Source of the DNA: a virus
DNA length: 30,989 nucleotides
IMG/VR virus record: IMGVR_UViG_3300031787_000569
Span: 1-30,989 of that record
Strand: one strand, 5' to 3'
Each line of letters opens with the position of its first letter. Position 1 is the first letter of the stretch. The translations under genes were made by a program, and so were the position numbers. Under the pieces are notes generated by a model. It saw only the letters and a list, made by a program, of their open reading frames with translations, was not told the origin of the DNA and searched no databases. This document shows positions 440 to 4,977 of this stretch, one piece after another.

Positions 440-690
440 TGGCATGCACACACACGCGATGGGTCTACGACCCGCCCTACGAGGACGACTGGACGGGCGA
501 GTGGATCACGCCGGAGCCCCGCGAGGTTGGCACGTCCGTGGACATCGACACCGGCCGCTTCCGCTGCACCCAGTGTGGCGAGGTCGGCTACTACACGGGC
601 CTGTGGCGCGACTTTCACGAAAGGGGCATCCCGTGCCCGGGTTCGGATGGGGTGCGCCGCGGGCCGCCTAACGTGGAGGTAAGCGGGTGA
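439..690 (+). CDS. Small zinc-ribbon-like protein, cassette gene
   Basis: This encodes 83 residues beginning MACTHTRWVYDPPYEDDW. It has one CxxC knuckle (RCTQCGEVGYY, Cys44 and Cys47), an early Cys3/His5 and a late Cys in IPCPG, so a single zinc-ribbon-like fold is plausible. The start is set by the TGATG overlap with the upstream gene. The last six or so codons and the TGA (688-690) lie to the right of the predicted cassette boundary (671/672), inside the hairpin arm of the neighbouring attC, so the present C-terminus is supplied by the next cassette. Similar short proteins occur among phage early genes; the function is unknown. Confidence 0.65.
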   Translation: MACTHTRWVYDPPYEDDWTGEWITPEPREVGTSVDIDTGRFRCTQCGEVGYYTGLWRDFHERGIPCPGSDGVRRGPPNVEVSG

Positions 691-759
691 CGCCCATGCA
701 AAGCAACGAACAACCACCGACGCCTGCCGGCGGCACTCCGCTTGACCGCAGGGTTAGGC
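666..759 (-). other. attC recombination site (94 bp) carrying an SD and start codon
   Basis: The outer boxes are GCCTAAC (666-672) and GTTAGGC (753-759), which are exact reverse complements. Inner arms GTAAGCGG and CCGCTTGAC pair with one extrahelical G, followed by GTG/CAC and CGCC/GGCG; the remainder forms a larger loop. Read on the - strand the 5' arm is GTCAAGCGGAGTGC, close to the usual L'' box with its extra C and A. Orientation is right to left, crossover between 671 and 672. The + strand of the left arm contains GGAGGT (675-680) and the GTG at 687 that starts the next gene. The site belongs to cassette 672-1047. Confidence 0.88.
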
Positions 760-1037
760 GTGTTGTGTGCGCCGCCATACGCGCCGCAGACGGAACGCTG
801 CTGCTTGGCGTGCGCCACTACAGCCGCGACATGCACGAACAGATTGCGGCCAGGCGCGACGGCGAGAAGTTCAAGCACCGGCACGACGAAGACCAAGGGT
901 TCGTTGACCAGTGGGGCGTTTACATGACCCGCGAGGAAGCGTACCGCGTGGCCGATGAGCAGGGCCAGATTTGGGACTGGCGCGCGTGCGGCAACGGCCT
1001 GGAAGGCCGCAAGCTGTACTCCGAGGGGCTGTATTGA
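687..1037 (+). CDS. Conserved phage-type protein of unknown function, cassette gene
   Basis: This encodes 116 residues from a GTG start with GGAGGT six bases upstream; that GTG also overlaps the TGA of the preceding gene (GTGA). The conserved-looking part begins near residue 27 (VCAAIRAADGTLLLGVRHYS) and ends with a YSEGLY tail. Proteins of this general pattern (AIRA.DGT.LLG.RH at the start, SE.LY at the end) are familiar from phage and prophage genomes as hypothetical proteins; this is recalled, not searched. The first 25 residues are encoded inside the attC at 666-759 and look unconserved, so GTG 765 is an alternative start. The gene is wholly inside cassette 672-1047 and ends five bases before the next attC. 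Confidence 0.68.
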   Translation: MTPMQSNEQPPTPAGGTPLDRRVRRVVCAAIRAADGTLLLGVRHYSRDMHEQIAARRDGEKFKHRHDEDQGFVDQWGVYMTREEAYRVADEQGQIWDWRACGNGLEGRKLYSEGLY

Positions 1038-1041
1038 ACAC

Positions 1042-1141
1042 GCCTAACGTTCGAGTGGAGGCGACCAAGGAGGCGCCGCGATGATGGACACCGACCAGAA
1101 CTCACCCGCCGACGCGGGTCGCCTCGCACGAGGGGTTGTGC
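1042..1141 (-). other. attC recombination site (100 bp) carrying an SD and start codon
   Basis: The outer boxes are GCCTAAC (1042-1048) and GTTGTGC (1135-1141). The main stem pairs GTGGAGGCGACC with GGTCGCCTC-G-CAC, twelve base pairs interrupted by one extrahelical G; read on the - strand the extra base falls on the 5' arm, as in canonical attC sites. Unpaired spacers of about six bases separate stem and boxes on both sides. The loop holds AAGGAGG (1067-1073) and the ATG at 1081 that opens the DUF4326 frame. It belongs to cassette 1048-1466, with crossover between 1047 and 1048. Confidence 0.85.
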
Positions 1142-1548: not shown

Positions 1549-2949
1549 ATGAACTACGACGACTACGTACAAACGAAACTCTCTCGCGTGCCACCGACCG
1601 GCATACCGCACGGCGCCTACATGCCAGATCACGGCCTGTTCCCGCATCAATGCGCGCTGGTGTCGTGGGCGTGCAAGCGTGGACGCGCCGCGATCTTTGC
1701 AGACACCGGGCTAGGCAAGAGCCGCATGCAACTAGCGTGGGCTGAGGCCGTGCGGCTGCACACTGGCCGCCCCGTGCTGATTCTTGCCCCGCTGGCCGTG
1801 GCACCGCAGACGGTGGCCGAGGGCGCCGAGATTGGCGTGAGCGTGCTGCACTGCCGCGATGGCAGCGACTATGACCCGAGCGAAGGCGCGCGGATCTGCA
1901 TCACGAACTATGACCGCCTGCATCGGTTTGATTGCTCGATCTTCGGGGCCGTGGTGCTGGACGAGTCGAGCTGCATCAAGCACCACGACGCCAAGACGCT
2001 GCGCACGTTGCTGACTGCGTTTCGGGATACGCCTTTCAAGCTGTGCGCCACCGCCACGCCAGCGCCGAACGACTGGACCGAGCTAGGCACCCATGCCGAG
2101 TTCCTGGGCGTTTGCACGCGCGCCGAGATGCTGGCGGAGTACTTCACGCACGACGGCGGAGACACCAGCGTATGGCGCCTCAAGGGCCACGCGCGGCACA
2201 TTTTCTGGCAGTGGGTGAGCCAGTGGGGCGCGATGGTGCGCCGGCCGTCTGATCTTGGTTTCGATGACTCTGCCTACGCGCTGCCGCCGTTGCATTTGCA
2301 CGAGCACACCGTCGAGACTGAAATGCCGCTGAACGGGATGCTGTTCGCCGCCGAGGCGCAGACGTTGAGCGAGCGCCGAGACGCGCGCCGCATGTCAACA
2401 GCTGACCGCGTCCGCGACTGCGCCGCGATTGTGAACAGCGAGGCGGCCGAGCCGTGGGTGGTGTGGTGCGACCTGAACGCCGAAGGCGATGCACTCACCA
2501 AGGCCATCAATGGTGCGGTGCAGATTGCTGGCGCCGACAGTACGGAAGTGAAGGAACAACGCCTGGCCGACTTTGCGGCTGGCCGGTTCCGCGTGCTGGT
2601 GAGCAAGCCGAGCATCTGCGGCTTTGGCTTGAACTGGCAGCACTCGGCGCGCATGGCCTTCGTGGGCGTGACTGACAGCTTCGAGGCCTATTACCAGGCC
2701 GTGCGACGGTGCTGGCGCTTCGGGCAGCGGCGTGATGTGCATGTGCATGTCTTTGCTTCATCGTCCGAGGGCGCGGTGGTGGCGAACCTGAAGCGCAAGG
2801 AACGTGACGCCACCAAGATGGCCGAGAGCCTGAGCCAGGAAACCAGAGATGCCGTGATGCAGGAAGTGACAGGCACTACGCGGCAAACCAATATCCACAA
2901 CGCAAGCCAGCGCGTGACCGTGCCGGCATTCTTGAAAGTAGCAGCATGA
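1549..2949 (+). CDS. SNF2/DEAD-like helicase, phage type, cassette gene
   Basis: This encodes 466 residues beginning MNYDDYVQTKLSRVPPTGI. Superfamily 2 motifs are visible: Walker A ADTGLGKS (51-58), motif II LDESS (137-141, with DESS replacing DEAD/DEAH), motif III-like TATPAPND (168-175), and motif VI QAVRRCWRFGQ (about 383-393). It should be an ATP-dependent nucleic acid translocase of the SNF2 or phage Rad54-like type. The frame is open from TTG 1501, but that lies in the attC; ATG 1549 (or 1543) fits the family N-terminus, although no good SD precedes either. The TGA overlaps the ATG of the methyltransferase (ATGA), so the two are translationally coupled. Such helicases paired with a methyltransferase are frequent in phage early regions. 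Confidence 0.88.
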   Translation: MNYDDYVQTKLSRVPPTGIPHGAYMPDHGLFPHQCALVSWACKRGRAAIFADTGLGKSRMQLAWAEAVRLHTGRPVLILAPLAVAPQTVAEGAEIGVSVLHCRDGSDYDPSEGARICITNYDRLHRFDCSIFGAVVLDESSCIKHHDAKTLRTLLTAFRDTPFKLCATATPAPNDWTELGTHAEFLGVCTRAEMLAEYFTHDGGDTSVWRLKGHARHIFWQWVSQWGAMVRRPSDLGFDDSAYALPPLHLHEHTVETEMPLNGMLFAAEAQTLSERRDARRMSTADRVRDCAAIVNSEAAEPWVVWCDLNAEGDALTKAINGAVQIAGADSTEVKEQRLADFAAGRFRVLVSKPSICGFGLNWQHSARMAFVGVTDSFEAYYQAVRRCWRFGQRRDVHVHVFASSSEGAVVANLKRKERDATKMAESLSQETRDAVMQEVTGTTRQTNIHNASQRVTVPAFLKVAA

Positions 2950-3818
2950 ATTGCATCGACCAGATCGTGACCGACCGCTACGCCGCATATCACGGCGACT
3001 GCGTGGAAGTGTTGAAGGGCCTGCCGGCCGCAAGCATCGGCTATTCGATCTTCTCGCCACCGTTCGCCAGCCTCTACACCTACAGCAACAGCCCGCGCGA
3101 CATGGGCAACGTGCGCGACGATGCCGAGTTCTTCGAGCATCTGGACTTTCTCATCGCCGAGCTGCGGCGCGTGATGAAGCCCGGCAGAAACATCAGCTTT
3201 CACTGCATGGACATGCCCAGCAGCAAAGAGCGCGACGGCGTGATCGGCTTGAAGGACTTTCCCGGCGATCTGCTGCGGGCGTTCCAGCGTCATGGATTCA
3301 TCTTCCATGCCAAGGTGACGATCTGGAAAGACCCGGTGACCGCGATGCAGCGCACCAAGGCGCTGGGCCTGCTGCACAAGAGCGTGCGCGAAAACTCTGC
3401 GATGTGCAGGATGGGCATTCCTGACTACCTCATCACGGTGCGCAACCCAGGCGAGCAAGAAGACCGCGTGACGCACGGCGCCGAGTTCCCTGTGGACTTG
3501 TGGCAGAAGGTGGCGAGCCCGGTATGGATGGACATCAACCCGAGCGACACTTTGCAATTCCGCAGCGCGCGTGAGCACGACGACGAGCGCCACATCTGCC
3601 CGCTTCAGCTTGACGTGATCCGGCGTGGCGTGATGCTTTGGACGAACCCGGGCGACATTGTGCTGTCGCCATTCATGGGCATTGGCAGCGAGGGCTATGT
3701 GGCGCTGGAAATGGGCCGGCGCTTTGTCGGCGCCGAACTGAAAGCCAGCTACTACGCGCAGGCTGCGGCCAATCTTGCGGCCGCCACCGCAAAGACCGAA
3801 GACCTCTTCGCTGCTTGA
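2946..3818 (+). CDS. DNA methyltransferase (N4/N6 amino type, beta order), cassette gene
   Basis: This encodes 290 residues beginning MNCIDQIVTDRYAAYHGD. The catalytic motif IV is SPPF (37-40) and precedes the AdoMet-binding motif I FMGIGSEG (about 243-250), the order expected of beta-class amino-methyltransferases. SPPF fits either N4-cytosine or N6-adenine transfer, so the methylated base cannot be called. No endonuclease gene is adjacent, so it is an orphan methyltransferase, probably acting with the coupled helicase to modify phage DNA or evade restriction (inference). The ATG at 2946 overlaps the helicase TGA. The gene ends 18 bases before the attI core, at the attI-proximal end of cassette 1467-3842; in an ordinary cassette it would read the other way. 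Confidence 0.9.
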   Translation: MNCIDQIVTDRYAAYHGDCVEVLKGLPAASIGYSIFSPPFASLYTYSNSPRDMGNVRDDAEFFEHLDFLIAELRRVMKPGRNISFHCMDMPSSKERDGVIGLKDFPGDLLRAFQRHGFIFHAKVTIWKDPVTAMQRTKALGLLHKSVRENSAMCRMGIPDYLITVRNPGEQEDRVTHGAEFPVDLWQKVASPVWMDINPSDTLQFRSAREHDDERHICPLQLDVIRRGVMLWTNPGDIVLSPFMGIGSEGYVALEMGRRFVGAELKASYYAQAAANLAAATAKTEDLFAA

Positions 3819-3836
3819 GCGCGGGGTATTAGTGAA

Positions 3837-3893
3837 GCCGAACTTGAATTCGACCGCGAAACCTGCGGCGTAACACCGGCAGCACCCCATGCC
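3837..3893 (-). other. attI site of the integron
   Basis: Read on the - strand, the crossover core is GTTCGGC (3843-3837), adjoining cassette 1467-3842. A second integrase box GTTACGC lies at 3874-3868, 31 bases before the core, and a weaker GGCATGG at 3893-3887. Box sequence and spacing closely resemble attI1 of class 1 integrons as I recall it, where DR1 is GTTACGC about 32 bases before the core and DR2 is GTTATGG. There is no long inverted repeat, unlike the attC sites, which is expected for attI. The outermost box overlaps the intI start codon. The core was first suspected to be a broken attC. Confidence 0.8.
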
Positions 3894-4977
3894 CACCTCG
3901 GAAGCGAACGTTACGCGCCGCAGCGCGCCGCTACTGCGCGAGGCGCCGGCACGCACCCAGTCGCCGGCTCCTCAGCGCGAGCTCGGCGGCATCGCTCCTG
4001 GCCAGCCGGGCTACCTGCACCAGCAGGTCATCGCCGCGATCCGCGTGCGGCACTACAGCCGCTGCACCGAGCAGGCCTACTGGCGCTGGGCGGCCCAGTT
4101 TGTGCGCTGGGCAGGCAAGCGCCACCCGGCGGAGATGGGCGCCGCAGAGATCCAGCAGTTCCTCAGCTATCTGGCCACCGATCGCGACGTCTCGGCCAGC
4201 ACGCAGCGCCAGGCGCTGGCGGCGCTCCTCTTCCTGTACCAGAAGGTGCTGGAGATCGACCTGCCTTTCATCGACGGCATCGTGCGCGCCAAGCAGCCGC
4301 AACGCCTGCCGGTCGTGCTGACGCGGGACGAGGTCGCGCGCCTGTGGCAGCAGATCCCCGATGCCTGCCCGCGAGGCCTGGTGCTGCGCCTGATGTACGG
4401 CACGGGCCTGCGGCTGATGGAAGCGCTAAGGATCCGAGTTCACGACGTCGACTTCGCGACCGGCAGCATCACCGTGCGCGGAGGCAAGGGGGACAAGGAC
4501 CGCACCGTCATGCTGCCGCGGACCCTTGATGCGCAGCTCCGCGAGACCCTGCGCCAGCGCGAGGCTTGGCACGTCATCGACCAGGCCACCGGCCACGCCG
4601 ACGTGGAGCTGCCGCACGCGCTGCATCGCAAGTACCCACAGGCCCCGAGGCAGCTGGGCTGGCAGTTCCTGTTCTCGACGCCGGCTTACTGCACCTGCCC
4701 CAGGACCGGCGCGATCCGCAGGCATCACCTGCACGAGGACGGCATCCAGCGCTTGATGGCCCGGGCGGTGGCCAAGGCCCGCATCGGCAAGCGCGCGACG
4801 CCGCACACGCTGCGCCACAGCTTCGCGACGCACCTGCTGCAGGCCGGCTATGACATCCGAAGCATCCAAACCCTGCTGGGCCATGCCGACGTCGAGACGA
4901 CCATGATCTACACCCACGTCCTGCCGGCCAGCCAGGGCGGCCGCGGCGTGGTCAGCCCGCTGGACGCACTCCCATGA
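3889..4977 (+). CDS. intI: Integron integrase IntI
   Basis: A tyrosine recombinase of 362 residues that should recombine attI with folded single-stranded attC. Catalytic residues are all present: Arg175 (GTGLR), Lys200 (GGKGDKDR), His306 and Arg309 (PHTLRHS), His332 (LLGHADV) and Tyr341 (MIYTHVL). The stretch at about 236-262 (DVELPHALHRKYP and GWQFLF) is the extra domain that separates IntI from Xer and phage integrases, and the C-terminus GGRGVVSPLDALP is the usual IntI ending, so the gene is intact. The first 40 residues are a low-complexity extension. ATG 3889 lacks a clear SD and overlaps attI. The 5' end faces the array as normal. The TGA overlaps the ATG of the HTH gene (ATGA). The gene may be co-transcribed with the + strand cassette genes. 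Confidence 0.96.
   Translation: MPTSEANVTRRSAPLLREAPARTQSPAPQRELGGIAPGQPGYLHQQVIAAIRVRHYSRCTEQAYWRWAAQFVRWAGKRHPAEMGAAEIQQFLSYLATDRDVSASTQRQALAALLFLYQKVLEIDLPFIDGIVRAKQPQRLPVVLTRDEVARLWQQIPDACPRGLVLRLMYGTGLRLMEALRIRVHDVDFATGSITVRGGKGDKDRTVMLPRTLDAQLRETLRQREAWHVIDQATGHADVELPHALHRKYPQAPRQLGWQFLFSTPAYCTCPRTGAIRRHHLHEDGIQRLMARAVAKARIGKRATPHTLRHSFATHLLQAGYDIRSIQTLLGHADVETTMIYTHVLPASQGGRGVVSPLDALP

Follow-up and report, generated by a model that had tools for sequence, protein, structure and literature searches.

Putative translation-initiation regions within the attC sites of inverted cassettes in phage-borne integrons

Background

In the usual integron, each cassette carries its gene first and its attC recombination site last, transcription depends on a single promoter at attI, and the newest cassette is the best expressed. 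An arrangement in which the recombination site precedes the gene and also supplies its start codon would depart from this logic in both polarity and mode of expression.

Integrons carried by phages are already known, and the bottom strands of some phage attC sites recombine with IntI1 (Qi et al. 2023, PMC9892861). The phage integrons and CALINs of that study resemble the locus described here in having attC arrays in phage genomes and DNA methyltransferase cassettes; the paper does not, however, mention any ribosome binding site or start codon within its attC sites. In phage TJE1, from the same study, the single attC that we detected is conventional, lying after a + strand gene with its bottom strand on the - strand. 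Effects of integron recombination sites on translation have also been described. According to the account in PMC8876359, attC hairpins modulate translation of the next cassette (Jacquier et al. 2009), and the influence of attC in the mRNA on the following gene and the short ORFs inside attC discussed there are themes shared with this work. In that system, as the account has it, the attC of the preceding cassette acts as a barrier or a re-initiation aid, whereas here the attC of the same cassette would contain the start codon of its gene. A further parallel is ORF-11 of attI1 (Hanau-Bercot et al. 2002, in the account of PMC8876359), in that a recombination site provides a Shine-Dalgarno sequence (SD) and an ATG that aid cassette expression; attI1 is fixed and yields a separate small peptide, whereas the mobile attC would give the start of the gene itself. 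Among open-access papers other than preprints, our searches for attC sites with internal starts or ribosome binding sites, and for inverted phage cassettes, found nothing similar, and earlier reports may exist. Phage integrons and the translational effects of attI1 and attC are thus known, while attC-embedded gene starts in phage integrons appear new in that we found no earlier description.

Results and discussion

The window, i.e. the whole stretch of DNA analysed (30,989 nt), corresponds to bases 11241-42229 of IMGVR_UViG_3300032093_000278, a 42-kb phage contig whose first 16.3 kb (L162) contain an array of six attC sites; coordinates below are those of the window unless given as L162. The array is located 3' of + strand phage genes for a dNMP kinase, a DUF2303 protein and a C5 methylase, and 5' of intI (3889-4977, +), the product of which passes the integron integrase model TIGR02249 with 420.5 bits (cut-off 265). 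DnaB is encoded on the - strand further to the left than these phage genes, and the right flank of the integron carries phage integrase, tail, head, portal and terminase genes on the - strand. With phage genes on both sides, the integron, judged by its gene content, is situated inside a phage or prophage genome. We had also considered host chromosome beside a prophage as the origin of the window's left part, and dropped this because phage genes flank the array on both sides in the 42-kb contig. The cassettes encode phage-type proteins (helicase, methyltransferase, DUF4326 and phrog_839), and the array is co-directional with both the upstream phage genes and intI. A scan of the array against Rfam gave no match. 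Relatives of intI were found in several IMG/VR contigs (L143-L152, L158-L160) and in a Rubrivivax MAG (L004), and a further integrase-like ORF follows shortly 3' of intI in several of these loci, which suggests a recurring integron location in related prophages.

All six attC sites share one orientation and have complementary R boxes and L arms, and on the + strand the 3' arm carries the asymmetric extra base. The position of the extra base identifies the + strand as the canonical bottom strand. The direction of attC relative to intI is normal, as in 13 of 14 related loci with both elements. The cassette genes, on the other hand, are on the + strand, thus the attC bottom strand, and read towards intI, so that an attC and the gene on its 3' side form one cassette, with the site at the 5' end, just as the original prediction had proposed. 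A conventional cassette has a top-strand gene followed by attC and is transcribed from Pc near attI, away from intI; here the family-matched phage-type genes occupy the bottom strand with attC on their 5' side and point at intI. We place the cassette borders (YAA^C) at 671/672, 1047/1048, 1466/1467 and 3841/3842, and joining the ends in circle form creates perfect R-box pairs for sites B (GCCTAAC/GTTAGGC), C (GCACAAC/GTTGTGC) and D (GCCGAAC/GTTCGGC). The GCCGAAC at 3836-3842 (+), which pairs with the GTTCGGC of attC_D, is the putative attI-side border of the first cassette. A Treponema-type 'reverse integron' is ruled out by the layout, since intI here faces away from the array and the genes of the cassettes read towards it.

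The window opens with the 3' end of a cassette gene (1-118, +) whose SD and ATG reside in an attC just outside its left edge (L162 10934-11037). This is a third site with an in-frame start, in addition to the two discussed below: it has AAAGGTGACTATG, encodes MTTEVAGRLASPLTEGLG.., and its gene runs from ATG at L162 10984 to a stop at L162 11358, equal to position 118. Next comes attC_A (120-177, with + as bottom strand), which is of a short type with no internal start codon and is followed by gene 1 (203-439, +), beginning after the site. Gene 2 (439-690, +) crosses a cassette border and ends inside attC_B, its stop TGA 688-690 overlapping a GTG at 687; gene 4 similarly ends with a TAG inside attC_D (1461-1518, +), another short site. 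The array is completed by a helicase-like gene (1501-2949, +), for which TTG 1501 is the mechanical ORF start and the true start is probably after attC_D, and by a DNA methylase gene (N6_N4_Mtase; 2946-3818, +).

The site attC_B (666-759, +; R' GCCTAAC 666-672, R'' GTTAGGC 753-759) precedes gene 3, a phrog_839 relative. The original prediction of an SD and in-frame start within two attC sites holds for both of them, with a likely change of start codon in attC_B. There, GGAGGT (675-680, +) and GTG 687 are in frame with a 116-aa ORF, and ATG 696 has an SD-like GGGTGA (685-690, +; -7.4), the homologous position of which reads GGGAGA in L046. We prefer ATG 696, giving a gene at 696-1037 (+), with GTG 687 as the alternative, because in a homologous cassette (L046/L205, 72% identical protein) the start ATG aligns with ATG 696 and the GTG codon is replaced by GAG, because a cassette with a different gene (L273) shares the context GGGTGACGCCCATG with attC_B, and because GGAGGT falls within the spacer and L arm, while GTG 687 is predicted to be paired. 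Relatives of gene 3 outside cassettes (L047, L048, L050 and L053) have their start no more than a few residues ahead of RRVVCAAIRAADG, and the attC-borne relatives have ~20 residues more at the N-terminus.

In attC_C (1042-1141, +; R' GCCTAAC 1042-1048, R'' GTTGTGC 1135-1141), AAGGAGG at 1067-1073 (+; -10.0) and ATG 1081 are in frame with a 136-aa ORF, gene 4 (1081-1491, +), which encodes a DUF4326 protein. The context AAGGAGGCG..ATG recurs in eight survey cassettes. Both proteins match PHROGs from residue 23 onward (gene 4 matches Pfam from residue 31), and the roughly 20-25 residues lacking homology agree with the ~25 unconserved, attC-encoded residues originally proposed. Of the later starts that had been named as a challenge to attC-borne initiation, GTG 765 is unlikely for gene 3, as it would cut into the conserved RRVVCAA block. 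GTG 1138, located in the R'' box with a poor SD (-5.3) at short spacing, is a weak candidate for gene 4, yet would bring the protein to the usual length of DUF4326 homologues: among relatives that have an SD, the start precedes the K-W motif by a median of 11 residues (n = 17), and the distance in gene 4 is 12 residues from GTG 1138 and 31 from ATG 1081.

A survey of related cassettes, which the original prediction had called for, indicates that the phenomenon extends beyond the two sites first noticed. Relatives were gathered by protein scans and two DNA-pattern scans, and the attC arm motifs used carry no start information. The attC detector recovered 6/6 sites on L162, gave none in 25.8 kb of phage DNA (both strands) or in shuffles, and yielded 382 distinct attC in 138 loci. 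Long attC (at least 90 nt) were scored as start-bearing when they had an ATG, an SD whose duplex energy was -5 or below, and no stop in that frame for at least 40 codons beyond the attC. This applied to the bottom strand of 83 of the 194 long attC in related phage contigs, the other 111 failing, as compared with 10.8 +/- 3.0 when the loop/middle was shuffled and with 3/189 on the opposite (top) strand. Among shorter attC, an ATG with SD occurs within 90 nt 3' of the site in 94/176, versus 7/171 on the top strand. Homology in the best frame, available for 115 cassettes, marked 90 as inverted and 25 as conventional-looking. When the gene frame was fixed by blastp between cassettes, the start was in the true frame in 19/37 versus 5/74 for the other frames (p = 2e-7, p-values being only rough since sites that share a locus or come from related contigs are not independent), and the ATG position was aligned in 32/32 related pairs. 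A blastn search with one region of survey locus L195 against named phages gave no match.

Could the signals be coincidental, with purine-rich arms and GC-rich open frames mimicking SD and ATG and the genes starting after attC (765, 1138 or later)? Long open frames are indeed common in GC-rich DNA, a point that also applies to our count of upstream frames ending in attC, the GGAGGT of attC_B belongs to the arm, and GTG 1138 yields a DUF4326 protein of native length. Hits are far rarer, however, in shuffles, on the opposite strand and in chromosomal attC, the homology test favors the leader frame, and a start at GTG 765 would remove conserved residues. At the level of the family, coincidence is already disfavored, and we regard it as highly improbable.

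Very probably, to judge from the sequences compared here, a group of phage cassettes instead has a 5' attC that often carries the gene's own translation-initiation region and an N-terminal leader. The gene lies on the attC bottom strand and so points to attI and intI. Many long attC (about 90-125 nt) have the SD and ATG in the loop, and the 3' arm and R'' box would be translated as a leader of ~17-27 residues to which the body is fused in frame directly after R''; in shorter attC the two signals are placed just 3' of the site. Each cassette would bring its own start signal to any landing place in a co-directional phage operon. The inverted orientation of the genes, the anatomy of attC, and the in-frame SD and ATG with their excess over three controls are read directly from the sequence. 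It is inferred that ribosomes use the attC starts and that the sites recombine and, from co-directionality only, that transcription arrives from the phage genes upstream and not from a Pc promoter. With a slightly looser SD limit, leaders end in ..LSEGLG (frame 0) in 40/93 and in ..VERGVRP or ..DRGVRR (frame 1) in 51/93 cases, and the third exit frame is normally shut by the TAG in GTTAGGC.

An alternative is that the SD and ATG open a short leader ORF aiding re-initiation at a separate downstream start, analogous to ORF-11 of attI1 or the short attC ORF of class 1 integrons. In class 1 integrons such re-initiation has been reported at both attI1 and attC (PMC8876359), and 12 of the 83 leader genes have an in-frame ATG with SD within 90 nt after the attC. 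The other 71 have no such alternative nearby, and frames fixed by homology agree with the leader frame, which is also stop-free for at least 40 codons into the gene, although the latter follows from how the sites were selected. We therefore think re-initiation unlikely. The original prediction had further suggested that attC folding in the mRNA may mask the SD and so couple translation to the state of the recombination site. Pairing at attC_B fits such a switch, as GTG 687 is predicted to be buried in a stem (0.02 unpaired) and the whole stretch from the SD to ATG 696 is fairly paired (0.24), and attC hairpins are reported, in the account of class 1 integrons in PMC8876359, to hinder translation of following cassettes. 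ATG 696 and ATG 1081 themselves have predicted unpaired values of 0.67 and 0.65, and across the 83 sites the start region is predicted to be as open as ordinary phage starts (0.50 versus 0.46), and in 74/83 it is less paired than either L arm. The start would thus usually be in the loop and not generally hidden; general occlusion of the SD is not supported by the folding predictions, and we think a switch unlikely as well.

A codon-position test on the leaders gave no bias (27/30/35), while the indel mod-3 tests were over-gapped in the first version and had few events in the second. In these comparisons the leader peptide has no detectable codon-level constraint and hence shows no sign of being under selection. 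Since the leader codons appear unconstrained, we read the attC as a probable mobile translation-initiation region, neither a switch nor a source of functional peptide.

Chromosomal integrons provide a natural comparison. The attC arm common to the phage sites was found in 24 of 301 genomes of the family of the Rubrivivax MAG, and one of these chromosomes (G139) has 151 copies of the motif, with a superintegron on contig 1 at about 1.98-2.04 Mb. The arms, e.g. GCCTAACGTTCGAGGTAAG, are the same as in the phage sites. Unlike in the phage loci, gene orientation is conventional, as seen for the non-IS cassette genes of G139 with Pfam matches (BLUF and RES; SLATT_4 below cut-off), and there is no excess of starts in attC: a bottom-strand ATG with SD was present in 8/105 long attC of G139 and four other such genomes, near the shuffled rate. 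The original contention that a normal attC, lying after its gene, cannot influence translation in this way was overstated, given that conventional hairpins are reported to modulate the next cassette (in the account of PMC8876359), but these attC supply no start (8/105). The G139 superintegron is a possible source of the phage attC.

A reversed polarity, in which the mobile site itself brings the start signal, would explain how phage cassettes are expressed within a phage operon. The case is evenly balanced that phage integrons form a distinct class, with attC serving as recombination site, portable initiation region and leader fused in frame at R''. If so, expression would be independent of Pc, the same attC-encoded N-termini would recur on phage proteins of unrelated kinds (several of DNA-modification or anti-restriction type), and the exchange of leaders and bodies at R'' would be one way in which cassettes form. 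Annotation that takes attC as non-coding would misplace the starts of these genes, and N-terminal peptides such as MQSNEQPPTPAGGTPLDR or MMDTDQNSPADAGR are expected if the attC starts are used. Cassette formation also becomes testable through gene bodies found with different attC leaders; both one body with different leaders and one leader with different bodies were observed, with the junction at R''. Three pairs (L284+4008 / L189-7256, L163+11857 / L175-2196 and L169-3898 / L210+1703) share a body in the same frame across different attC leaders, joined at R'', as if leaders and bodies were swapped there. In another pair, L174-1915 and L176+9879, the attC sites are near-identical, and a single base near R'' turns exit as ..EGLG into exit as ..EGVRP, in agreement with the gene that follows each site.

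Most leader-bearing ORFs are without a family match. Those that can be assigned include DNA methyltransferases, a Mom-like protein, a PAPS reductase and phrog_839 proteins, some of the last being annotated as anti-restriction nuclease in other phages, and a role of the leader-bearing cargo in counter-defence is possible.
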